This document shows, piece by piece, positions 6,602 through 28,078 of a stretch of 64,000 nucleotides of DNA (its first letter is position 1; each line of letters begins with the position of its first letter). The notes under the pieces were generated by a model that was not told the origin of the DNA, did no database searches, and worked only from the letters and a program-made list of their open reading frames with translations. Source of the stretch: Piscirickettsiaceae bacterium (lineage in GTDB: Bacteria; Pseudomonadota; Gammaproteobacteria; Nitrosococcales; Methylophagaceae). The stretch lies in assembly GCA_013215775.1 (NCBI GenBank), contig JABSQO010000001.1:62001-126000 (forward strand), written 5' to 3'. Made by a program: the position numbers and the translations under genes.

Positions 6602-7864
6602 ATGAACTCAACAAGTAAACTCTTTATTTCCTCTCTAGTTTCAAAGAGAAATTTTTTAAACTTGATACTCACCTTCGCCTTTTCTGGCCTAACGGCTTAT
6701 GGTGTCTGGCTGCTTGCCACTAATCAATATCAACAATTTCTAAATGACCCATTAATGTTTGCTGCCGCTATTATTGCCAGTTTAGTTCTAACCATTATCA
6801 TGGTGCTACGGCTGGGCTACTTGCCTTCAAAAATATTAAAAAACTCTCTAGACACGATGGAGCTGCAAAATCGTCATAACCAAGATGCCATTTTAAGGTT
6901 GCTTGATGAGATGGGTGACCTTGCTGATGGTGACCTCACTGTATCGGCAACTGTCACCGAAGATATCACCGGCGCTATCGCAGACTCTGTTAACTATACT
7001 ATTGACGCCTTACGTAACCTAGTCGAGAACATCAACAATACCACGCTACAAGTTGCTTCAGCCGCGCAAGAAACACAGGCAACCGCATTGCACTTGACTG
7101 ATGCCAGTGATCACCAAGCAACACAAATAACTGAGGTCACAACAGCCATTACCGATATGGCCGCTTCTATTGAGCAAGTATCTCAAAATGCTAGCCAATC
7201 TTCCGATGTGGCAGCACAATCGGTAAGTCTTGCGGTGCAAGGTAATGCGGCGGTAAAAAAAGCCATCAATGGTATGGATACTATTCGCGAACAAATTCAA
7301 GAAACATCAAAACGTATTAAACGACTTGGTGAAAGTTCACAACAAATTGGCGACATCGTTGAATTAATCAATGACATCGCTGAACAAACTAACATTCTCT
7401 CGCTAAATGCTGCCGTTCAAGCAGCAATGGCAGGCGAAGCAGGTCGTGGTTTTGCCGTAGTTGCCGATGAAGTACAACGCTTGGCTGAACGTTCTGGTAA
7501 CGCCACCAAACAAATTGATGCCTTAGTCAAAACCATTCAAAGCGATACTAATGAGGCCATTAGTTCAATGGAACAAAGTACATCTGAGGTTGTTTCTGGA
7601 GCGAAATTATCACAAGATGCTGGGGCAGCACTTGAACAAATTGAAACTGTATCGCAACAACTTGCTGACTTAATTAACAATATTTCAGATGCCGCCAAAC
7701 AACAAGCTCAAGCGGCAGTGAGCACGGCAGATAACATGAACATAATTCAAGAGATAACGATGCAAACATCGACAGGCACCAACGAAAGTGCTGCATCTAT
7801 TGGGCGGTTATTAGAATTAACGAATGAACTCCGTACATCTGTTTCTGGCTTCAAACTACCGTAA
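6602..7864 (+). CDS. pilJ: Methyl-accepting chemotaxis protein, PilJ-like but short
   Basis: 420 aa; MCP signalling tip [35 protein letters not shown]; two closely spaced N-terminal TM segments. Confidence 0.85.
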
Positions 7865-7929
7865 CATTCAGCGACGATTAAAAGATGCCTTATTTCATCA
7901 CAATATTTACCACTGGCCTGGAGTAACAC

Positions 7930-10900
7930 ATGGCAGCAATAAACAGTGGAAATTATGATGCCCTTATCTGGGTGCAGGATGAAGTACAAGAGTCACTGGC
8001 CAGTGCTTTACAAGCACTCACTACTTTTATTGATGCCCCTGAAGATAGTACTGTATTAAATCCGTGCGTCACCCAATTACATCAAGTTACCGGCACAATG
8101 GAAATGCTCAATCTACAAGGGGCTCATCTATTAGTTCGTGAAATGTTAGCTTCAGCAATTGCTATTCGCGATCAACAAAATACTCAAATACAGGATAGTC
8201 TTTTAAAAGGACTGTTGTTATTGCCCAATTATTTAACATTGCTTGGTCCAAAACTATCTGATCATCCATTACGCCTACTTGATTCTATCAATGAATTACG
8301 TATCGCCCGTAATGATTCTATTATTGAAATCAATGATGTATTCACTCCGAACTTGTCTATTGATTTACCTAGTCATATCGTCTTTAACTCCGAAAGAGAC
8401 TTGCCAAATATAGGCTTATCATTTCACAAGATAAGTCATGCTTTCCAAATTTCACTGCTAAATTGGATAAAAACTGACGATCGAAAAAGTCTGCGTAAGA
8501 TGGCAAGCCTGATCAATTATTTACGCCTGAATTCGACTAATAATAAACCCACTGCATTTTGGTGGATCGCGGAAGGTTTCATTGAAGCTATCCTAGATGA
8601 TGGTTTGGTAACAGACTCAAAAGTTAAGCTCATTATGGGCAAGTTAAATCAACCTATAAAGCTGTTTACCACACAAGGTGAACAACAATTATTGGCTTTA
8701 TTTCCTGATAAACTCACTCAACAATTACTCCTGCTCTTGGCGGAGGCCACAAGTGAAGGCGAGAAAGTATCCACTCTCAAAGAGCTTTTCCATCTCGATT
8801 TCTTTGACCCTCAACAACATCACCAAATCTATAATTTTGGTGACAATGCCTTGGCTGATGTACATACCCAACTATTAGAACAATTACAGGAAATTAAAGA
8901 ACAAATCGACCAGTTCAATCGAGATTCTGATGATGTAGTAATCGCGGCTCTTGCTGTTATATCAGAGCAATTTTCATCAATGGCAGATACGCTAATACTA
9001 TTAGCTGAATCCGCTACTAGTACACTGCTTCAACATCAATCTGAACAACTCAACGCTTTCGTTTCATCACAACATCGCCCTAATGATGAGCAACTATTAT
9101 CGTTAGCAGATGTCCTGTTACAAGCCGAGATCCAGCTACAAAAGAACAGTGGGATTGCCGGATCAACTGCCGATAACGATCAACTTCTTCGTACGGTTGT
9201 CGGTGAATGTTTAGATGAACTCAACAATATTAAAGAAACTTTGGCCTTATTGGAAAATCGCCCTGATGGTGCTTCTGAAATATTATCTGATGCCGCCACT
9301 CAGTTAGAGTTAATGGCCGGCAGTATCCGCATGTTGAATATGGATGATGCAGCTACTTTACTCACAAATACTGCTCTTCAAATGAAAAATACCAGTGATG
9401 GAGCACAGAAACTTACCCCCGATGAACTTGACTCATTTGCTGAAGTAATTGCCGCCATTGAGTTATACATGGAGGGTTTTTCTCAGCATGGACAACAGCA
9501 ACTGCTCTTACTGGATCGAGCTCAACATATTCTCTCTAACTTTGAAATCCTTGACACTGATGACATTGAATCAATCATCTTGGATGCTAGTGAAAATTTG
9601 ACTAGTGTTGAACGCTATATTCAAGCACGGGCTGAAATAGAAACAAATAATATTGACCCCCCTGTTGAAGATAAGGCTCTAGAACCTATCGCATCAGAGA
9701 TCAGCAATAACTTAACCGGCGTTGAGCGCTATATCCAAGCACTGGCTGAAATAGAAACAAGTAATCTTGAATCTACTGTTGAAGATAACGCTCTAGAATC
9801 TATCGCATTAGAGAGCGGCAATAACTTAACTGGCGTTGAACGCTACATTCAAGCACAAAGTGAAGATCAAGCACCACAATTCGCTGAAGGCATCGATGCT
9901 GAAATTGCTGAAATCTTTATTGAAGAAGTCAATGAAGTGCACGATGAGTTACACACACTCATTCCAACATGGATCGATCAACATGATTTAGCAATATTGG
10001 CGACTATCCGTCGCCACTTCCACACCCTCAAAGGAAGTGGTCGTATGGCCGGAGCTAATATAATTGGTGAATTATCCTGGTCCATTGAAAATTTGCTCAA
10101 CCAAGTCATCGAGGGTGGTCATTCCGTTACTCCTACTTTAGAGCAACTGCTCCTCGACAGCTACCAAATTATTCCTGAGTTATTATCGCTGTTCACCCGT
10201 GGTGATATGAATTCTACGGAGCAGGTTGATGAATTAGCAAGCCGTGCCTATAACTTGCTATCAGCCGAAGAAGCCGAAGAAGCCGAAGAAGCCGAAGAAG
10301 CCAGTATCAACTTATCTGAACATGATGAGTTACAACAAATATTTAACAATGAAGCAAAACAACATATTGCTTCATTTAAGCATGTTCTCTCCCAAGCAAA
10401 ACCACCATTCAGTCTGAGCAAAGACTTATTACGTGCAGCACACTCTCTAAAAGGCTGTGCCAGTATTGCCCAAGTAACACCTATCACCATCATTGCTAGT
10501 CAATTAGATGCTGCTTTACGAAAAATTCATGGGCAGGCACTCACCCTAGATGAACAACAATTATCATTATTGGCTGACACAGTTGATGGTATTGACCAGA
10601 TTATCGCTCATTTAGAGCAGTCAGATACTGAAGAACCTGATATTCGCCTACTGTCAGATAATCTTTACCAGATTACCCCGCAAGATACCCAACAGCGCGT
10701 TATTGACCCTGAATTCCTTCTCGTTTATTTGGAAGAAACAGATGAATTACTGGCACAATACACCCAGCAAATTGAGCAACTTCAACAACAGCCTGATAAT
10801 ACAGAATATCAAACCTCCATTCAAAACACCTTAAAAGCACTTATATCCAGTGCTCAACATGCACAATTGACGGTTATTGCTGAGTTATATCAATTATTAG

Positions 10901-17172: not shown

Positions 17173-17219
17173 CACTTAACGTATAATTGCGCTATCAATT
17201 TAATTCGGACCAATATCCT

Positions 17220-18191
17220 ATGAGTAATACTGTTTCTGCCAATTGGACTAGCGTTAATGCTGCTTGCCAACCGTTAGTTGAGAGTCTGATCGCTGATGCA
17301 CAAGCACTACAACTTGAAGTCAGCACACTAAGCAATGGCACTCGAATCATTGATGCGGGTATTAATTGTGTTGGTGGTTTAGAGGCAGGTCGCCTTATTG
17401 GTGAAATTTGCATGGGCGGCTTGGGTACAGCCACATTAGGTACCAATAGTGGTTTTGATAACTGGCCTTGGTCTGTCAATGTGCATGCTAAAACACCTGT
17501 TTTAAGTTGTCTCGGTAGCCAATATGCTGGCTGGAGTTTATCGCATGAAAAATTCTTTGCTTTAGGTTCTGGTCCTGGTCGCGCATTGGCGGGCAAAGAA
17601 GCAGTCCTAAAAGAGTTTGGCTATAAAGATCAAGCAGACAAAACCGTTATCGTTTTAGAAGTGGATAAATTCCCACCCATTGAAGTCTCAGAAAAAGTAG
17701 CTAAAGACTGTGGCATCAAACCAGAAAATTTAACCTTTATCCTAACACCAACATCAAGCCTTGCCGGTGTCATGCAAATTGCAATTCGTGTGCTTGAAGT
17801 CGCCATGCATAAAGCACACGCCCTACATTTTCCTATGGATAAAATTATTGATGGTTTTGGCGTCACTCCTGTTGCTCCTCCTGGTGGTGACTTTATGACA
17901 GGTATGGGCCGTACTAACGATGCTATTCTGTATGGTGGCATGGTTCATCTATTTGTTGATGCAACAGATGAAGAAGCACAAGACCTAGCAGAGAAATTGC
18001 CTAGTAATACTTCCTCAGACTATGGTCGTCCGTTTGGTGAAGTGTTTAAATCTTATGACTTTGATTTCTTCAAAGTGGATCCAATGTTATTCAGCCCCGC
18101 CAAGGTGATTGTAACCAATGCCAATACAGGTAAAAGTTTTACTGCTGGTGAATTTAATAAAAAATTATTAACGACATCTTTCGGCCTATAA
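17220..18191 (+). CDS. mch: Methenyltetrahydromethanopterin cyclohydrolase
   Basis: [27 protein letters not shown]...[28 protein letters not shown] at 17220 preferred over the upstream TTG at 17187. Confidence 0.95.
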
Positions 18192-18213: not shown

Positions 18214-19140
18214 ATGTCTTCTCCCAAAATAGTTATTTTTAATGATACTCATGGCTGGCATAGTGAGCAGCTGGTTTCTGCACTAGAATCTCACAATATT
18301 ACTGCTATTCTGACTGACTTGGCAGAATGTACTATTGACCTTGATTCTCCAACAGGCTTGATTATCCCGGGTTTTGAAGATCAATTACCCAGCGTTGCAA
18401 TGGTGCGTGGTATTGCTCCAGGCAGCCTCGAACAAATTACGCTACGAATGGATGTCTTACATACTTTAGCCGAACTAAATGTACCCGTCTTTAACTCCGC
18501 CAGTGCAATTGAGCATACTGTGGATAAAGCTCGCACTTCACTTAGACTGCACCTTGCCGGATTGAACACACCAAAAACATGGGCATGTGAGAATAGAACT
18601 ATTGCCAGAAAAATTGCTGCTCAACAGTTCGAAAAAAATATGAGTTTAGTCGTCAAACCCTTGTTTGGCTGCCAAGGAAAAGGTATTGAAAAAATCATAG
18701 ATCTAGATCAGTTTGATGCAATCACACCTGTCGGTGATGCTTTTTATATGCAGGAATATATCGAATCTTTTGAACCCAATCACTGGCAAGATTGGCGTTT
18801 GATGGTTATTGATGGCAAAGTCTGTGCAGCCATGTCTCGTCGCTCTCAGCACTGGATCACTAACTTTGCTCAAGGTGCTGAATGTTTCCCCACCACTGTC
18901 ACTGCAGAAATGGAACAACTGGCTATTAAAGCGACACAAGCTGTGCAAGCCGATTATGCCGGTGTCGACTTGATTAGAAACCAAAATGGTAGTTACACAG
19001 TACTAGAAGTCAATAGCGTTCCGGCATGGAAGGGCTTACATCAAGCAACAGGTATCAATGTCGCTCATCATCTCACTCGAGCATTAATCAACCGAATTTC
19101 GTCGACTCCCGACTCTAAATTGGACTATGTTAAACACTAA
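18214..19140 (+). CDS. RimK-like ATP-grasp protein of the H4MPT island (Orf5-type)
   Basis: 308 aa; ATP-grasp motifs VVKPLFGCQGKGIEKI, YMQEYIES, GVDLIRNQNGSYTVLEVNSVPAWKGL; sits between mch and orf7/fae as in known methylotroph islands. Confidence 0.82.
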   Translation: MSSPKIVIFNDTHGWHSEQLVSALESHNITAILTDLAECTIDLDSPTGLIIPGFEDQLPSVAMVRGIAPGSLEQITLRMDVLHTLAELNVPVFNSASAIEHTVDKARTSLRLHLAGLNTPKTWACENRTIARKIAAQQFEKNMSLVVKPLFGCQGKGIEKIIDLDQFDAITPVGDAFYMQEYIESFEPNHWQDWRLMVIDGKVCAAMSRRSQHWITNFAQGAECFPTTVTAEMEQLAIKATQAVQADYAGVDLIRNQNGSYTVLEVNSVPAWKGLHQATGINVAHHLTRALINRISSTPDSKLDYVKH

Positions 19141-19975
19141 ACAGATTCAACAGTGCATCATTTGGGCTTGTGAAAATGAAGTCTCCGCACCAAAACCCGG
19201 CAATGTAAATTGTTTTAGCGGTGGTCATAATATGGAGGTGCAAGATTTCATTAACAGTGCTCACGCTATTGCTCCCGTCCTTGCCCAACCGAACATCAAT
19301 GTTGGAGACATGATTCTACAAGCGATAACTGCGACAAGAACTGTTGTAAACTGTAATACTAATCTTGGCATCGTGTTGTTATTTGCCCCGCTATGTCGAG
19401 CTATGCAAAATTGCCACACATTTGAACAGTTGCCAGAAGAATTGGCAAAAATATTACAAAACCTAACTGTTGATGATGCAGAGAAATGTTATCAAGCTAT
19501 TCGTCTCGCAGAAGCTGGTGGTTTGGGTAAATACGAACAGCAGGATATTAATAGACTGCCGACTGTTACATTAAGAGAAGCAATGGCACTTGCTCAAAAT
19601 CGTGATTCTATCGCTGCACAATACCTAAATAATTACCATGAAATATTTCATCTTGGACTGCCAAATTTGGTAGCCGCGATTAATTGCGGGGAAAGTGTTG
19701 AATGGGCTAGCGCTTTCGCGTATCTTATGCTCCTATCACACATTCCAGATAGCCTGATTCATCGTAAACATGGTTTGGAATGCGCCCAAAGGGTAATGGA
19801 ACAAGCAAAGAGCATAAGCGGTAAAGTCATAAATAACAATCGCTTAAGTGAGTTTGAGTCAGACATTTCCCAGTGGGATAACACATTAAAACAGGAAGCG
19901 ATTAATCCTGGAACATCTGCAGATTTGACCGCGGCAACGCTGTTAATTTATGCATTTGAACAGGCGCTTTGTTAA
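19127..19975 (+). CDS. Triphosphoribosyl-dephospho-CoA synthase (CitG)-like protein of the H4MPT island (Orf7-type)
   Basis: 282 aa; SAPKPGNVNCFSGGHNMEVQDFINSA...NTNLGIVLLFAPL; overlaps the preceding CDS by 14 bp. Confidence 0.82.
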   Translation: MLNTKQIQQCIIWACENEVSAPKPGNVNCFSGGHNMEVQDFINSAHAIAPVLAQPNINVGDMILQAITATRTVVNCNTNLGIVLLFAPLCRAMQNCHTFEQLPEELAKILQNLTVDDAEKCYQAIRLAEAGGLGKYEQQDINRLPTVTLREAMALAQNRDSIAAQYLNNYHEIFHLGLPNLVAAINCGESVEWASAFAYLMLLSHIPDSLIHRKHGLECAQRVMEQAKSISGKVINNNRLSEFESDISQWDNTLKQEAINPGTSADLTAATLLIYAFEQALC

Positions 19976-20102: not shown

Positions 20103-20621
20103 ATGCCAGTTATCGATCGCGTACTCGTAGGCGAATCTCTAGTCATTGAAGATGGTGACTTAGACAACGTAGCCCACATTGACTTACTTATGGGCCCTCG
20201 TGGCTCAGCAGCAGAAGATGCATTTTGCCGCACTATGACAGACCAAAAAGCAGGTGTTAATGGCTTATTAGCCGTTGTTGCACCTAACTTAATGGTTAAA
20301 CCAGCAACAGTTATGTTTAACAAAGTAACTATCAAAAACATGAAACAAGCCGTTCAAATGTTCGGTCCAGCACAACGTGGCGTTGCCATGGCTGTTGCTG
20401 AATGTGTTGAAGACGGTACTATCCCAATGGCTGAAGCTGACGATTGTTTCATCTGTGTTGGTGTATTCATTTCACCAACCGCTGATAGTGATCAGAAGAT
20501 CCAAGATTGGAACTATCGTGCAACGAAAGAATCAATCAAACGTGCTGTTGCTCGTGAGCCGTCAGCAGCTGACGTTGTAGCACAATATAAAACTAGTGAG
20601 CATCCATTCGCTGCTAACTAA
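20103..20621 (+). CDS. fae: Formaldehyde-activating enzyme
   Basis: 172 aa; [61 protein letters not shown]. Confidence 0.97.
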
Positions 20622-20639: not shown

Positions 20640-20670
20640 CCGCTCCCGAATAAGGAGCGGTGTTTGTTTT
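20640..20670 (+). terminator. Intrinsic terminator after fae
   Basis: ccgctcc-cgaataa-ggagcgg followed by tgtttgtttt. Confidence 0.8.
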
Positions 20671-21343
20671 ACTGATTCGCCATATCCAAATATCCATTGT
20701 GTAATGCACTAGCGATAAGAGCGCCTGAAGCATTTTCTCGTTCTAATACTTGTAAGTCCTGTAGCCCCCTCACTCCCCCTGCGACAATGACATCCACGTC
20801 CGATCTTTTCTCTCGTATCTGTTGCAGCAATTTAATATCTGGTCCCTCTTGGGCTCCAACATTATCTAAATTCATTGCAATAATCGTATCTGGCCACCAT
20901 TCTGATCTTTGCCATATTTCAGGATTGCCTAAAAATTTTCCATTCTGAAAATCCAACGACAACACACTCTGTCTTGCTTGTTTTAATATTGTTAAATTAT
21001 CTAATGTTTCACTCCCTATCACTGGTATAACATCAGGAATATCGGTTAAGGCTTGCCAATCTTGCCGTGACTTTATCCCTGCATCAATCCAAAATACAAC
21101 TTCAGGAAAAATAGTCACTAATTGTTGGTAAAGTGCTAAATCAGGATTTTGATCGAAAATACCCCCTAAATCTGCAATATAAATTATCTTAAAGGGATAA
21201 GTAGATCTTAAGTCAGCAATAACTTTCTCTGGCTCGATATATTCAGTGAGCACGGACTGTAAAGGTGGATAATTTTGTCGGTCTCCCCCACCAGCCTGCA
21301 CAACAATTCCCCCCATCAAATCAATGACCGGTATAATTTCCAT
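20669..21343 (-). CDS. HisA-related TIM-barrel protein (H4MPT-island associated)
   Basis: 224 aa; MEIIPVIDLMGGIVVQAGGGDRQNYPPLQS...VIVAGGVRGLQDLQVLE, HisA/HisF-like fold signature without a his operon context. Confidence 0.8.
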   Translation of the reverse strand: MEIIPVIDLMGGIVVQAGGGDRQNYPPLQSVLTEYIEPEKVIADLRSTYPFKIIYIADLGGIFDQNPDLALYQQLVTIFPEVVFWIDAGIKSRQDWQALTDIPDVIPVIGSETLDNLTILKQARQSVLSLDFQNGKFLGNPEIWQRSEWWPDTIIAMNLDNVGAQEGPDIKLLQQIREKRSDVDVIVAGGVRGLQDLQVLERENASGALIASALHNGYLDMANQ

Positions 21344-21366: not shown

Positions 21367-22392
21367 ATGAATTTATTTGTTTACGAACATATCACCAGTG
21401 GTGCACTTATCGACCAAGAGCTCCCTGCTAGTCTCGCACATGAAGGTGATGAAATGCTATTTGCTGTATTGCGTGATTGCGACGCTTTACCGAATTTGCA
21501 ACTGAGTATTCTACGTGATGCTAGATTAACTAATCTCGATATTTTTGATGGTGAAAAACACCATCACTGCCATATTATTTCTGACCAAACTGGCTTTCAA
21601 CAGGCTTGGAAACAATGTCTAACAAATGCTGATAGTGTTCTTATTATTGCACCAGAGACAGATAATACATTAGCAACATTGCAACAGCAGGCCATTGATT
21701 ATAATAAAGTTATATTAGGGTGCCTGCCATCTGCAATATCATTATCCACTAACAAACTAGCCTGTGCACAACGATTGAATGCTTATAATATACCGACACC
21801 TGAAAGTTGTTTGGCGAGTCACTGGAACCAACAGAAATTCGAACATCTTGAAGCTTATATTATGAAACCTATTGATGGCGCAGGATGTCTTGATACATTA
21901 ATCTTCGATACCCTTCCTGAATTGGAACACCATTTATCACAACAACATTCAGAAGCACTACAACACTCTCTCATCCAGCCATATATTCAAGGTATCCCCG
22001 CCAGTTTATCCCTACTAATATCTAACGATAATATCTTGGTGCTAGGGATAAATTCACAAAATATTGTCCGAAAAGACAATAATCTCATCTTTAAAGGCTG
22101 TGTGGTAAATGGTATCGATCAGGTTCTATTTTCACTGTCCGATGCCTCACAACTCGCTTCGCAAATTCAACAAGCTATTCCAGGCTTATGGGGATTTGTC
22201 GGAATTGATTTAATATTAACCGATACTCAAGTAGTTGTGATTGACATCAATCCTCGTCTAACAACATCCTATGTAGGATTACAACAATCATTATCCTTAA
22301 ACCCAATGACATTATTATTTTCCCTAAACGATGGTGTCATGCCGATTCTAGACACCACTAGACAACGTAAACACGTTAATATTGCGCTATGA
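21367..22392 (+). CDS. ATP-grasp protein, MfnD-like (tyramine-glutamate ligase-like)
   Basis: 341 aa; MNLFVYEHITSGALIDQELPASLAHEGDEML...; GFVGIDLILTDTQVVVIDINPRLTTSYVGL. Confidence 0.75.
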   Translation: MNLFVYEHITSGALIDQELPASLAHEGDEMLFAVLRDCDALPNLQLSILRDARLTNLDIFDGEKHHHCHIISDQTGFQQAWKQCLTNADSVLIIAPETDNTLATLQQQAIDYNKVILGCLPSAISLSTNKLACAQRLNAYNIPTPESCLASHWNQQKFEHLEAYIMKPIDGAGCLDTLIFDTLPELEHHLSQQHSEALQHSLIQPYIQGIPASLSLLISNDNILVLGINSQNIVRKDNNLIFKGCVVNGIDQVLFSLSDASQLASQIQQAIPGLWGFVGIDLILTDTQVVVIDINPRLTTSYVGLQQSLSLNPMTLLFSLNDGVMPILDTTRQRKHVNIAL

Positions 22393-23435
22393 CAACTAAC
22401 AAATCATTTATTACTGGCTGGGATATTGGTGGTGCTCACCTCAAAGTGGCTCGATGCGATCACCAAGGTACGCTTATCCAAGTAGCAGAATTTTCTTGTC
22501 CACTATGGCAAGGTATTCATTATCTAGAACAAGCTATTCAGTCGGTACTAGAACAGTTTAATAATAAAGATGATTTAACAGCCGTGACAATGACGGGGGA
22601 GCTCGTTGATATTTTCCCTGATCGACAAATAGGTGTGACACAAATACTAGATTGCTTTACTCAGTTTGTTCCCGAACAAAATTGTTCCGTCTATGCTGGC
22701 GATAAGGGTTGGCTATCTGCTAAAGAAGCTAAACAACAGTGGCAAAATGTCGCTTCCCGAAACTGGCAGGCTAGTGCCAGTCTTGTCGCATCTAAAATAA
22801 ATAATGGTCTATTTATTGATATCGGTAGCACGACTACCGATATTATTCCCATACATCAAAGTGAAGCGATTCCTTCTTCTTATACTGATAACCGTCGGCA
22901 AACCAGTCGTGAATTACTCTATACCGGAACAATAAGAACACCCTTAATTGCACTGACTAATATTGCGCCATTTAATGGCGAATTAGTCAGTCTCGCTGCT
23001 GAAGTTTTTGCCACTATGGGTGATTGTTGGGTCTTACTTGATCAGCTTAATCCCAATACTATTCAAGATAGCAGTGCTGATAGCAAATCGTGGTCTAAAG
23101 ATAATTGTGCCCGGCGTATTGCCCGACTGTTGGGCTTAGACTCGCGTGATGCAAGTAAAGAACAATGGCAACAATTGGCACTGTGGTTCGCACAACAACA
23201 AATACATCAAATTACTAATGCCTGTTTACAGGTATTATCTGCACATACTGAACGAGTGAATGACGCACCAATTATTGGCGCAGGTATAGGTCGTTTTATT
23301 GCCCAACAATGTGCCCAACAACTTGGTCGACCTTATATTGATTTTAGTTCTTTAGTGTCTCCAACCTCTCATGAAGCTGCAGATCATGCTCCTGCCGTAG
23401 CGATAGCGCTTCTAGCACAGCGAGACTTAACGTAA
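22389..23435 (+). CDS. Hydantoinase/oxoprolinase-like H4MPT-linked C1 transfer protein (MfnF-like)
   Basis: 348 aa; ITGWDIGGAHLKVARCD, LFIDIGSTTTDIIPI, GELLYTGTIRTPL-like motif, ASHK-type ATPase fold; overlaps previous stop by 4 bp (ATGA). Confidence 0.78.
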   Translation: MTTNKSFITGWDIGGAHLKVARCDHQGTLIQVAEFSCPLWQGIHYLEQAIQSVLEQFNNKDDLTAVTMTGELVDIFPDRQIGVTQILDCFTQFVPEQNCSVYAGDKGWLSAKEAKQQWQNVASRNWQASASLVASKINNGLFIDIGSTTTDIIPIHQSEAIPSSYTDNRRQTSRELLYTGTIRTPLIALTNIAPFNGELVSLAAEVFATMGDCWVLLDQLNPNTIQDSSADSKSWSKDNCARRIARLLGLDSRDASKEQWQQLALWFAQQQIHQITNACLQVLSAHTERVNDAPIIGAGIGRFIAQQCAQQLGRPYIDFSSLVSPTSHEAADHAPAVAIALLAQRDLT

Positions 23436-23444
23436 AATATCCTC

Positions 23445-24833
23445 ATGTCAGCTAAATACCCGCCACTTTGTGTCGAACTTCCATATCAATCAGATAGCAG
23501 CCTTTATTTTGAAGCACTGCGTGATTTGCCGTGGCCGGTGTTTTTAGATAGTAGTCAAAGATCAACTCAAGACAGTCGTTATGATATCTTGACTGCAGAT
23601 CCTTTTATTACATTAGTGACTACTGATGATGGTACAACCATTCAACATCGCCAGGAATCAGCAACACTTTCTCAGCTAGACCCTTTTTTATTACTGCAAC
23701 AACAGTTAGACAATTACCCTCGGCAAACATCAACCGACCTACCTTTTTGTGGCGGTGCGGTCGGTTATTTCAGCTACGATCTAGGTCGCAAAATTGAGAC
23801 TTTGCCTAACACCGCATACAACAACGAACATATCCCCGATATGGTTGTAGGTATTTATGATTGGGCAATTATTACTGACCACCAGCAACAGCAATGTTGG
23901 TTGGCCAGTTTTGCCATTGATGATAATACACATGAGAATTGGTCACAGCTCATTGAACGTTTTACCAAGCCATTTGTTCCTTATTCTGCTGAATTTAAAG
24001 TAGAAGGTGAATTGCGAAGCAATCTAGATCGCGCACAATATCAACATGCCTTTGACAAAATTCAGCACTATATTCATGAAGGTGATTGCTATCAAGTTAA
24101 TCTTGCCAAACGATTCGAAATAAAGGCCTCTGGTGATCCATGGGTTGCCTACAAAGAATTACGTCAGTTAAATGCAGCTCCTTTTTCAACTTTCTTCGCC
24201 CCCCCACAGATGACATTACTCAGTTCTTCTCCTGAGTGTCTACTTCATGTCCAAGATAATAGGGTAGAAACAAAGCCTATCAAAGGCACTCGCAGACGTG
24301 ATCTGAACAATTCTGAACAAGATAAAATTCTTGCTGATGAATTGATTCATAGCGTTAAAGATCGTGCAGAAAATCTCATGATTGTTGATTTACTGCGTAA
24401 TGACCTAGGGAAAGTATGCGTACCCGGTTCAATAAAAGTACCTAAACCTTTTGCTCTTGAGTCTTTTGCTACCGTGCATCATTTAGTCAGCACAATTACT
24501 GCTACCTTATCGAATAATCAAGATGCAATATCATTGCTTCGAGCATGCTTCCCGGGAGGTTCTATTACTGGCGCGCCTAAGTTACGTGCAATGGAAATTA
24601 TCGAAGAACTAGAACCTGACCGTCGAGGCGTCTACTGTGGCAGTATGGCTTATATTGGTTTTGATGGTGATATGGACAGTAATATTCTCATTCGAACCAT
24701 GATTTACAGTGATAATCGCTTACGATTTTGGGCTGGAGGAGGCATTGTAGCCGATTCAAATGCAGATGAAGAATATCAAGAAATCCATGATAAAGCAGCC
24801 GCTATGCTTAATCTTATCCAAAAATTGTATTAA
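23445..24833 (+). CDS. pabB: Aminodeoxychorismate synthase component I
   Basis: 462 aa; chorismate-binding domain KPIKGTRRRD, ENLMIVDLLRNDLGKVC, PGGSITGAPKLRAMEIIEELEP. Confidence 0.92.
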   Translation: MSAKYPPLCVELPYQSDSSLYFEALRDLPWPVFLDSSQRSTQDSRYDILTADPFITLVTTDDGTTIQHRQESATLSQLDPFLLLQQQLDNYPRQTSTDLPFCGGAVGYFSYDLGRKIETLPNTAYNNEHIPDMVVGIYDWAIITDHQQQQCWLASFAIDDNTHENWSQLIERFTKPFVPYSAEFKVEGELRSNLDRAQYQHAFDKIQHYIHEGDCYQVNLAKRFEIKASGDPWVAYKELRQLNAAPFSTFFAPPQMTLLSSSPECLLHVQDNRVETKPIKGTRRRDLNNSEQDKILADELIHSVKDRAENLMIVDLLRNDLGKVCVPGSIKVPKPFALESFATVHHLVSTITATLSNNQDAISLLRACFPGGSITGAPKLRAMEIIEELEPDRRGVYCGSMAYIGFDGDMDSNILIRTMIYSDNRLRFWAGGGIVADSNADEEYQEIHDKAAAMLNLIQKLY

Positions 24834-24841
24834 TTCTGATT

Positions 24842-25444
24842 ATGATTGTCGTTAAATTAGGTGGTAGTTTATACAATACCCCAGAACTGAAATTGTGGTT
24901 AAAGACACTGACTATTCAAGCTAAATCTCACCCCATCATAATCGTGCCTGGTGGTGGCCCTTTTGCCGATCAAGTTCGTCATGCACAGGAAACTCATCAA
25001 TTTAGTGATAGCCATGCTCATCATATGGCACTATTGGCAATGAGTCAGTTTGGATTACTATTATCTAGCCTTGTACCGAATTGCCAAGTTCTAAACTTTC
25101 CTGAGGATCCAATTACCACGTTTGAAGGACTCTCTGTCTGGTTACCAAATCAACAACTATTAACTAAGACGGCTCTTAAGCATAGCTGGGATATAAGCTC
25201 CGACAGTTTAGCCCTATGGCTGGCTAATGAGCTTCATGCTGAGCAATTGATTCTTATCAAACAGGTGGATTTACCAAACAATCTTTCTATCTCAAAACTC
25301 AGTGAACAAGGCATTCTTGATCGTGGGTTCCCACAACTCTACGCTCAGATACCCGTACCAAGCCAGATTATTTACGTCCAAAATTACCAACAATTTTCTG
25401 CACAGCTCGACCCTAACTCACTATCCCGATTACAACTACAATGA
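24842..25444 (+). CDS. Amino acid kinase-family protein, MfnE-like
   Basis: 200 aa; MIVVKLGGSLYNTPELKLWL...IIIVPGGGPFADQVRHAQ. Confidence 0.78.
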   Translation: MIVVKLGGSLYNTPELKLWLKTLTIQAKSHPIIIVPGGGPFADQVRHAQETHQFSDSHAHHMALLAMSQFGLLLSSLVPNCQVLNFPEDPITTFEGLSVWLPNQQLLTKTALKHSWDISSDSLALWLANELHAEQLILIKQVDLPNNLSISKLSEQGILDRGFPQLYAQIPVPSQIIYVQNYQQFSAQLDPNSLSRLQLQ

Positions 25445-26649
25445 ATGATGATATAACTCAATTATTGTCAGAGCTTCAACTCTCTCTCAACCAATTGACA
25501 ACTGCTCAGCAATCTCAGGCAGAGAAACTACCTATTCTTAATCAAGCTGCTAATAGTAATCATCTGTTATCCACACTAAGTGCTTTGATCTCGGAAGGTA
25601 ATATACACCGCTCAGAGACTTGGGCGGCTCATATGTCGCCTGCTATTTCTACGACCAGTCTATTAGGTCATCTTATTGCGGGTTTGCATAATGGCAATCT
25701 ACTCTCGCCTCAGATTTATCCTATTCTTGCATCAATAGAACAACAGATCCTTGATTGGTTATGTAACGTGTTTCAACATCAACATGGCCATTTTGTCGCA
25801 GGTAGCAGTTATGCCAACCTAGAGGCCCTATGGCAAGCAAAACAACAATCTAACAACGCTAACGTTGTCTACGCATCTCAGGCAGCACATTACTCCATCG
25901 CTAAAGCCTGCCAAATTTTGGATTTAAAACTAAAACCGATAGCGACGGATAATAATGACCGATTATTACCAACAGCATTACAACAAGCATGTGAAGATCA
26001 GGCTCCTTTAGCCATTGTCGCAACGGCTGGCACCCCTACGGCCGGTGCAATCGATCCTATTGCGAATTGTGTCGAGATATCCCAACAATTTAATGCCTGG
26101 CTTCATATTGATGCTGCGTGGGGTGGCGCGCTAATAATCCTACCTGAACATAAATCATTATTTGGTGAACTATCTCAGGCTAATTCTATCTGTTTTGATC
26201 CCCATAAAGGGTGGCAACAACCAAAACCTGCCAGTATTTTATTATACCAACAGCCACTTAAAGCGATGCTTGATAGTAATGTTGATTATCTTGAATTCAC
26301 ACCATCAAATAGTTTGCCCGGCTCTCGAGGAGGTGAATTATTTTTACCTCTGTGGCTGACATTAATGGGAGAAGGTATTGATGCGTTACGGGAAAAAATT
26401 CGGCTTAGGTTGGGACAAGCAGAATCATTTTCTAGTCAATTAAAGCAACGTACTGATTGGGAAATATATTCGTCACCTACTGGGATAGTATGCTTTCACA
26501 TTAATCGCTCTGTGGATTTAACCCTCCTAGTCGAACAAGGCATATTTTCACAAGCGAGCATATTGGGAACCAACGTCTATCGTGCGGTCTTTGCTAGTCC
26601 AAACACCAAAGCAACAGCGCTTATTGCTGCACTGGAGCCATACTTTTAA
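25441..26649 (+). CDS. Group II PLP-dependent decarboxylase (tyrosine/aspartate decarboxylase MfnA-like)
   Basis: 402 aa; TAGTPTAGAIDPI...WLHIDAAWGGALI...ICFDPHKGWQQP (PLP-Lys motif); starts inside the previous stop (ATGA overlap). Confidence 0.82.
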   Translation: MNDDITQLLSELQLSLNQLTTAQQSQAEKLPILNQAANSNHLLSTLSALISEGNIHRSETWAAHMSPAISTTSLLGHLIAGLHNGNLLSPQIYPILASIEQQILDWLCNVFQHQHGHFVAGSSYANLEALWQAKQQSNNANVVYASQAAHYSIAKACQILDLKLKPIATDNNDRLLPTALQQACEDQAPLAIVATAGTPTAGAIDPIANCVEISQQFNAWLHIDAAWGGALIILPEHKSLFGELSQANSICFDPHKGWQQPKPASILLYQQPLKAMLDSNVDYLEFTPSNSLPGSRGGELFLPLWLTLMGEGIDALREKIRLRLGQAESFSSQLKQRTDWEIYSSPTGIVCFHINRSVDLTLLVEQGIFSQASILGTNVYRAVFASPNTKATALIAALEPYF

Positions 26650-28078
26650 TTTGTTTATGTACACTATCAAATCGGCGTAACCAAGATGGTAGGGTATTCA
26701 AAGGGGCAGGCCAATTACCACTGGCAGTTAATGCAACTTGCTTACTGTCAAACACGCCATAGATCACAGCATACCAAACTCGACCATTACGCGTACTTTC
26801 AAATGTTGCCACATCACCTGTTAATGAATATTTCTCAATAAAATCACTAACTTCTTGTTTTTCCCAAGAGCCCATCAACTGAAATGTATAATCAGAACCT
26901 TGCTGTTGTAATATCCAATCTTGGTGATAAATCTCTTGAGTTAAGATTGTTGCATCCTCAACAATACGTTGCTTAGCCTCTAATGGCTCCTCAATATCTT
27001 GCGGTTCTTTTTGCTTTAAGATCAGTCCTATCTGTTCTATTTCTGACAATAAACTAGTTAACTCATCACGTTCGGCTTGTTCATTAGTTTTAATGTCATC
27101 ATTCTCTACAATAACCATCGCTGGCTCAACGTCCTCTGCCATATCAATCACACTTTGTTCCATTACCTCATTGTCAGATGATAAAGGTGTTAACCAGCTA
27201 TTAAGCTGATCTTGATATCTCAATAGTAATACTAATAATACGATTAAAATTCCCACTCCAATCCATCTCATGCCAGCCCTAAGTGAGGAAAAATCAAATG
27301 ACATTGAACTTGAGGCTACCGGCTTTAACCCTAATAACTGCTGATGTGCTAACTGGTTAATTAGCTCAGGATTACCTGATGATAATCGATAGAACTGCTG
27401 CACATCTTTATCCGAAAAAGGATTTTCTCCTTGATAACCGACACGGGTCAATCGAAACATCAAATAAGCTGAGAGCTCCTGTTGCTCCATAGCAGGCAAG
27501 TCAACCTTTTGTATGCGAGGCTGTACTGAATTTGCTAAAGAAATCTCACTCTTAGAGGCGATAACTGCCTGTAATAAATAATCCTCATTATTTTGCCAAT
27601 CGAACCAGGTTGATAAAGTTGCTAACGACCCTTCTGATAGCGCTTGGGCATTGTCCACCAGTAATAATGGCCTAATATTTAGTTTGCCAAGTTGTTTTAA
27701 TCTGTTTCTAAAGGTGTCACTAAGATTGTCACTTGCCTGAATTTCACCCTCATCAACCCCTAATTGTTGTAAACATAAAACTAAGGTTGCATCAGTATTG
27801 AATTGCATTTGACCGTCGAGATTGAATGTTTTCAATTCCTCGCCAACTTGATTTTGTAGCTGAGTAAGAAGTGTTGTTTTACCCAAACCATCATCGGCAA
27901 CCAATAGGGCAATCTTACTGCTAGATCTGACTAAATGAAGTAATAAGTTTAGTCTGTGCTCTAACTGTGAACTACTGTAATACGTATCCAGCTTAGTGGC
28001 GATACTAAAAGGAGCTGACTGAAGAGCCAACCGAGAAATATAGGATGGTTCCGTAGAAGAAGCTTCAAATTCAGTCAT
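26621..28078 (-). CDS. AAA+ ATPase with C-terminal SPOR domain, DamX-like
   Basis: 485 aa; ExeA-like ATPase N-terminus (LLVADDGLGKTTLL), central TM, SPOR-like C-terminus; downstream of aroKB. Confidence 0.8.
   Translation of the reverse strand: MTEFEASSTEPSYISRLALQSAPFSIATKLDTYYSSSQLEHRLNLLLHLVRSSSKIALLVADDGLGKTTLLTQLQNQVGEELKTFNLDGQMQFNTDATLVLCLQQLGVDEGEIQASDNLSDTFRNRLKQLGKLNIRPLLLVDNAQALSEGSLATLSTWFDWQNNEDYLLQAVIASKSEISLANSVQPRIQKVDLPAMEQQELSAYLMFRLTRVGYQGENPFSDKDVQQFYRLSSGNPELINQLAHQQLLGLKPVASSSMSFDFSSLRAGMRWIGVGILIVLLVLLLRYQDQLNSWLTPLSSDNEVMEQSVIDMAEDVEPAMVIVENDDIKTNEQAERDELTSLLSEIEQIGLILKQKEPQDIEEPLEAKQRIVEDATILTQEIYHQDWILQQQGSDYTFQLMGSWEKQEVSDFIEKYSLTGDVATFESTRNGRVWYAVIYGVFDSKQVALTASGNWPAPLNTLPSWLRRFDSVHKQIKSMAPVQQ

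Follow-up and report, generated by a model that had tools for sequence, protein, structure and literature searches.

A gene at positions 25441-26649 (plus strand) of the window, by which we mean the whole 64,000-nucleotide stretch of DNA analysed, encodes a group II PLP decarboxylase of 402 amino acids that we judge, with a probability of roughly 80%, to be a PLP-dependent L-tyrosine decarboxylase making tyramine for the formyl carrier methylofuran (MYFR). Operon context and established PLP chemistry together point to tyrosine as the substrate, and the MYFR of this cell would be of the tyramine form. The proposal draws on the retained PLP residues, a fixed place in the operon, presence and loss shared with the pathway, and the remaining pathway genes in the genome; as a counterpoint, the nearest solved relatives of the protein are not tyrosine decarboxylases.

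An earlier note on this DNA had placed the product among the group II PLP decarboxylases, an assignment borne out by an intact ORF running from ATG to TAA, a score of 143.3 bits against Pfam family PF00282 (gathering cut-off 27) and the presence of the motif ICFDPHKGWQQP. Members of PF00282 are typically decarboxylases, and this is the sole PF00282 protein of the source genome. By analogy with other group II decarboxylases, Asp224 in the motif HIDAAWGG (26104-26127, plus strand) is the predicted partner of the PLP pyridine nitrogen, and Lys256 in the motif DPHK (26197-26208, plus strand) is by alignment the Schiff-base lysine. These two residues and His150, assigned to ring stacking, are invariant in 32 family sequences, and they align with their equivalents in M. 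jannaschii MfnA (the sequence used is identical to PDB 3f9t) and others, MfnA being the L-tyrosine decarboxylase of archaeal methanofuran synthesis.

The gene is under purifying selection, with dN/dS of about 0.13 in the close pair L088/L090 and about 0.11 relative to L081, where dS is near saturation. Its GC and GC3 are the same as those of the neighbouring genes, and a recent horizontal gain marked by composition was rejected accordingly. An AAA-domain (DamX-like) gene on the minus strand (26621-28078) converges on the decarboxylase gene with a 29-bp tail-to-tail overlap (26621-26649), and many related loci show a similarly close tail-to-tail arrangement.

The decarboxylase gene is the final member of a C1-cofactor cluster. 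The cluster opens, on the plus strand, with mch for methenyl-H4MPT cyclohydrolase (17187-18191; TIGR03120, 419 bits, above cut-off), a glutamate ligase gene of the MyfB (Orf5)/MptN-like type (18214-19140; NF040720, 217 bits, below the cut-off of 350; RimK family TIGR00768, above cut-off), a CitG-like gene of the Orf7 type (19127-19975; PF01874, 241.7 bits) and fae for the formaldehyde-activating enzyme (20103-20621; TIGR03126, 214 bits, above cut-off). A HisA/HisF-related gene on the opposite strand comes next (20669-21343; TIGR00734, 126.6 bits, below the cut-off of 179.9); its place inside the cluster is kept in those Methylophagaceae loci that reach that far, and it is possibly a cofactor gene itself. 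The plus strand then continues with an mfnD-like ATP-grasp ligase gene of the tyramine-glutamate ligase type (Orf1; 21367-22392; NF040722, 87.3 bits, below the cut-off of 400; PF02655 and PF18301), an mfnF-like gene (Orf9; 22389-23435; TIGR03123, 333 bits, above cut-off; NF040623 for MfnF, 169.7 bits, below the cut-off of 520), pabB for aminodeoxychorismate synthase component I (23445-24833; TIGR00553, 372 bits, above cut-off) and an mfnE-like gene for [5-(aminomethyl)furan-3-yl]methyl phosphate kinase (Orf21; 24842-25444; NF040622, 86.5 bits, below the cut-off of 300). MfnF joins the furan to the tyramine or tyrosine unit, and the pabB product provides 4-aminobenzoate for H4MPT. The stop codon of mfnE and the start codon of the decarboxylase gene share the 4-bp sequence ATGA (25441-25444), which agrees with the translational coupling to an MfnE-like kinase described previously. 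The location downstream of MfnD-like and MfnF-like genes was likewise correctly described, but the pabB gene lying between mfnF and mfnE had gone unmentioned.

This arrangement is a property of the family Methylophagaceae, marine bacteria that live on methanol. A scan of one genome per species from 84,980 species, using two conserved motifs as the query and reaching near relatives only, returned 39 loci, all from Methylophagaceae (either Methylophaga itself or relatives not in culture that carry the label Piscirickettsiaceae or Gammaproteobacteria). The gene is present in the cultured species M. muralis (L109) and M. lonarensis (L112). The aligned proteins from these loci are 41-71% identical to the product of the window gene. 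The mfnE gene directly precedes the decarboxylase gene in 39 of 39 loci, and the full order (mch, myfB, citG, fae, the hisA-like gene, mfnD, mfnF, pabB, mfnE, decarboxylase) recurs in nearly all of them within the reach of the contigs. Because the same gene occupies the same place in all 39 Methylophagaceae loci, its position in the cofactor cluster is no chance event. The exact 4-bp overlap was counted in 31 of the 38 loci measured, taking as the start the start codon closest to the mfnE stop, a choice that favours overlaps.

Across 57 genomes of the family, the decarboxylase is present in 54 and mch in 52. One genome of 1.1 Mb, scored as 100% complete (G029), carries neither the decarboxylase nor mch nor MfnF, and this reduced genome seems to have lost formaldehyde oxidation by way of H4MPT and methylofuran. 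Another genome without the decarboxylase (G069) is 68% complete. A true absence in G059, where the contig stops just beyond mfnF, and a truncation in G014, where a contig end cuts the gene, were both rejected, the gene running off the contig end in each case. A suspected pseudogene in G077, flagged for one TGA codon, was also rejected, as the frame is open for 388 amino acids and the flagged codon falls upstream of the start.

The genes expected of a tyramine-MYFR system (MfnB, MfnD, MfnE, MfnF, MyfA, MyfB and FhcD types) are all present in the source genome. MfnB and FhcD are encoded in this genome, and on its contig C24 lies a second cluster with genes for a beta-ribofuranosylaminobenzene phosphate (beta-RFAP) synthase, for two Mpt_N proteins and for another ATP-grasp_3 protein, a fit for MyfA. 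Within that second cluster (L131, 11678-14537), the two Mpt_N proteins, of the methylene-H4MPT dehydrogenase type, flank the beta-RFAP synthase on either side; these genes adjoin the MyfA-like ATP-grasp gene, and a PQQ methanol/ethanol dehydrogenase-type gene is close by. Judged by gene content, the methylofuran pathway as published (Hemmann et al. 2021; PMC8141765) thus appears complete apart from the aminotransferase. This enzyme, MfnC, is yet to be identified for bacterial MYFR (PMC8141765).

In the proposed sequence of events, tyrosine would bind PLP at Lys256, lose CO2 and be released as tyramine, to which the MfnD-like ligase would add glutamate. MfnF would then couple glutamyl-tyramine to a furan pyrophosphate, itself the product of MfnB, an aminotransferase and MfnE. 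The glutamate chain would be lengthened by MyfA and MyfB. Decarboxylation would have to precede acylation by MfnD because a PLP decarboxylase requires a free alpha-amine. The presence of mfnD does not in itself fix the type of cofactor, since Methylomicrobium album, a strain of the tyrosine type, has MfnD-like ligases too (PMC8141765).

The description of the protein as MfnA-like holds in some respects and fails in others. MfnA (TIGR03812) is the best NCBIfam match, and the M. jannaschii enzyme likewise belongs to PF00282, is of nearly the same length (396 amino acids, versus 402 here), has the same PLP Lys, Asp and His residues and possesses an equally short loop from a conserved Tyr-Leu (after Tyr283 in the present protein) to Gly-Ser/Thr-Arg. 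As with MfnA, the gene is tied to furan-cofactor synthesis, in this case by its adjacency to mfnE throughout the loci. However, the MfnA score of 112.6 bits falls well below the cut-off of 299.4, identity is only 28% over 235 amino acids, and the two proteins do not group in the tree, a separation that is weak given the long MfnA branch. In this phylogeny of 27 sequences, an analysis that the earlier note had called for, the Methylophagaceae proteins resolve as one clade (98/99) that may attach at any of several points among PanP, RhbB-like, AADC-like and mxa-linked enzymes, and M. jannaschii MfnA lies elsewhere, at the end of a long branch and weakly placed next to histidine decarboxylases. 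The label 'MfnA' is therefore best taken as a statement of putative role, ancestry aside: the protein would be analogous to MfnA, and orthology is unsupported.

Given these relationships, we considered whether the enzyme might decarboxylate another amino acid (Glu, Dab, Trp/DOPA or His) and sit in the operon by chance, serving for example polyamine, GABA or stress metabolism. The closest solved relatives by sequence profile are 8zpi (188.6 bits) and 4rit (179.2 bits), versus 106.4 bits for MfnA. The structure predicted by AlphaFold2 with 32 family sequences as input (mean pLDDT 87.6, with the minimum in loop 277-297) matches group II decarboxylases, the top matches being a Sphaerobacter enzyme and the tryptophan decarboxylase of R. 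gnavus, and MfnA is not among its best 50 structure matches. In sequence and fold, then, the protein is nearer to Sphaerobacter/diaminobutyrate-type and tryptophan decarboxylases than to MfnA. The entry 8zpi is labelled EctB, and the L-2,4-diaminobutyrate decarboxylase RhbB (NF052646) nearly ties with MfnA among the NCBIfam profiles at 111.3 bits. That score is nevertheless far from the RhbB cut-off of 900, and the curated cut-offs for MfnA, PanP, glutamate, Dab and histidine decarboxylases are all missed by the protein, with a large shortfall for RhbB and for the glutamate and histidine enzymes. Glutamate, which had been offered earlier as an alternative substrate, finds minimal backing, with 34.6 bits against the glutamate decarboxylase profile (TIGR01788; cut-off 380.4). 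A role in the metabolism of another amino acid is also at odds with the family-wide place beside mfnE and with the joint absence of the decarboxylase, mch and MfnF in G029, and we regard it as quite unlikely.

We think it very unlikely that the enzyme is instead a PanP-like L-aspartate decarboxylase supplying beta-alanine for CoA, or one acting on both tyrosine and aspartate. Such a reading can appeal to the M. jannaschii MfnA structures 6jy1, 6ldr and 6m4y, which are deposited as L-tyrosine/L-aspartate decarboxylase, to a shared Pfam family and to 102.5 bits against PanP (TIGR03799), but that profile has a cut-off of 606.1. The operon, moreover, holds C1-cofactor genes and no pantothenate genes. 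Pyruvoyl PanD is encoded in the source genome and in 55 of the 57 family genomes, so beta-alanine supply is independent of the decarboxylase and a PanP-type replacement of a missing panD is not the case here. The gene panD is kept even in G029, which is without the decarboxylase and the C1 pathway. These observations weaken aspartate as the other alternative substrate that had been put forward.

Least probable of all is that the protein carries out the MfnC aminotransferase step just before MfnE, in which case the cofactor would be of the tyrosine type: the vacancy for a bacterial MfnC, the overlap with mfnE, the fold type I PLP architecture and the transaminase title of 8zpi would suit it, but the protein belongs to a family of typical decarboxylases and retains all of their PLP residues, and half of the other MYFR genomes (10 of 20) have no PF00282 protein, which argues that MfnC is generally something else.

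Those other genomes come from 398 high-completeness Pseudomonadota genomes, of which 21, the source genome included, pass the MfnF/Orf9 cut-off. Where PF00282 proteins do occur among the remaining ones, they are diverse and score at most 153 bits against the Methylophagaceae decarboxylase family.

An L-tyrosine decarboxylase in this operon would bear on published differences among bacterial cofactors. The earlier note had proposed a tyramine-type furan cofactor as a chemically distinct bacterial variant; this form has been known since 2021, when MYFR from nine strains was found to contain tyrosine in two and tyramine in six, all six proteobacterial, with none detected in the remaining strain (Hemmann et al. 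2021; PMC8141765). The note's statement that Methylobacterium methylofuran retains tyrosine was correct, the tyrosine form also being that of M. extorquens (PMC8141765). What remains of interest here is a separate enzyme clade and a prediction for a gammaproteobacterial lineage. Tyramine-type MYFR has so far come from alpha- and betaproteobacteria, and M. album, the single gammaproteobacterium to yield MYFR, has the tyrosine type (PMC8141765). A literature search for Methylophaga together with methylofuran found no paper, and none of the publications retrieved describes an analysis of MYFR from Methylophagaceae. The decarboxylase, coupled to mfnE family-wide, offers a clean gene-to-cofactor prediction, namely that Methylophagaceae make tyramine-methylofuran. 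If true, they would constitute a tyramine-type gammaproteobacterial lineage, and expression of the gene in Methylorubrum extorquens should convert the cofactor core. M. extorquens is already known to take up fed tyramine and incorporate it into its cofactor (PMC8141765).

BLAST searches by Hemmann et al. found MfnA homologues in three of the six tyramine-type strains and none in Methylophilus methylotrophus, Hyphomicrobium zavarzinii and Burkholderia sp. Leaf177, leaving open the source of tyramine in half of these strains and the reason why bacterial cofactor cores differ (PMC8141765). If the present assignment holds, archaeal MfnA as the sole query can overlook tyrosine decarboxylases of bacteria or give them the wrong name. 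The idea that the present clade supplies the missing enzyme of those three organisms is unsupported, the motif scan, within its reach of near relatives, having given Methylophagaceae alone.

Methylobacillus flagellatus, which makes tyramine-MYFR (PMC8141765), has a candidate MfnA, Mfla_2033, that is encoded next to mxa and is also a PF00282 protein. We know Mfla_2033 by description only and represent its type by a gene in genome G382 (L132, 9425-10957) that lies in the place described for it, beside PQQ dehydrogenase, MoxR-type AAA, DUF58 and VWA genes. This representative encodes 509 amino acids, shares 30.5% identity over 239 amino acids with the Methylophagaceae enzyme, and is found next to methanol dehydrogenase-type genes outside the cofactor operon, whereas the window gene lies inside it. 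In the tree, the G382 protein forms a lineage apart from the Methylophagaceae clade, which supports separate recruitments insofar as it stands in for Mfla_2033.

The score below the MfnA cut-off, the 28% identity and a clade of its own, apart from both MfnA and the Mfla_2033 type, suggest that Methylophagaceae recruited a group II decarboxylase separately. We lean, by a small degree, towards the broader view that tyramine-type furan cofactors arose repeatedly through different group II decarboxylases: archaeal MfnA, the mxa-linked enzyme of Methylophilaceae-like organisms, and the operon-locked Methylophagaceae clade, which would then be a new tyrosine decarboxylase subfamily.

In a further MYFR-type Pseudomonadota genome (G172), a decarboxylase encoded at approximately 7352-8788 of locus L133 falls together in the tree (100/100) with the tryptophan decarboxylase from R. 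gnavus, and this L133 enzyme is possibly another aromatic decarboxylase candidate.
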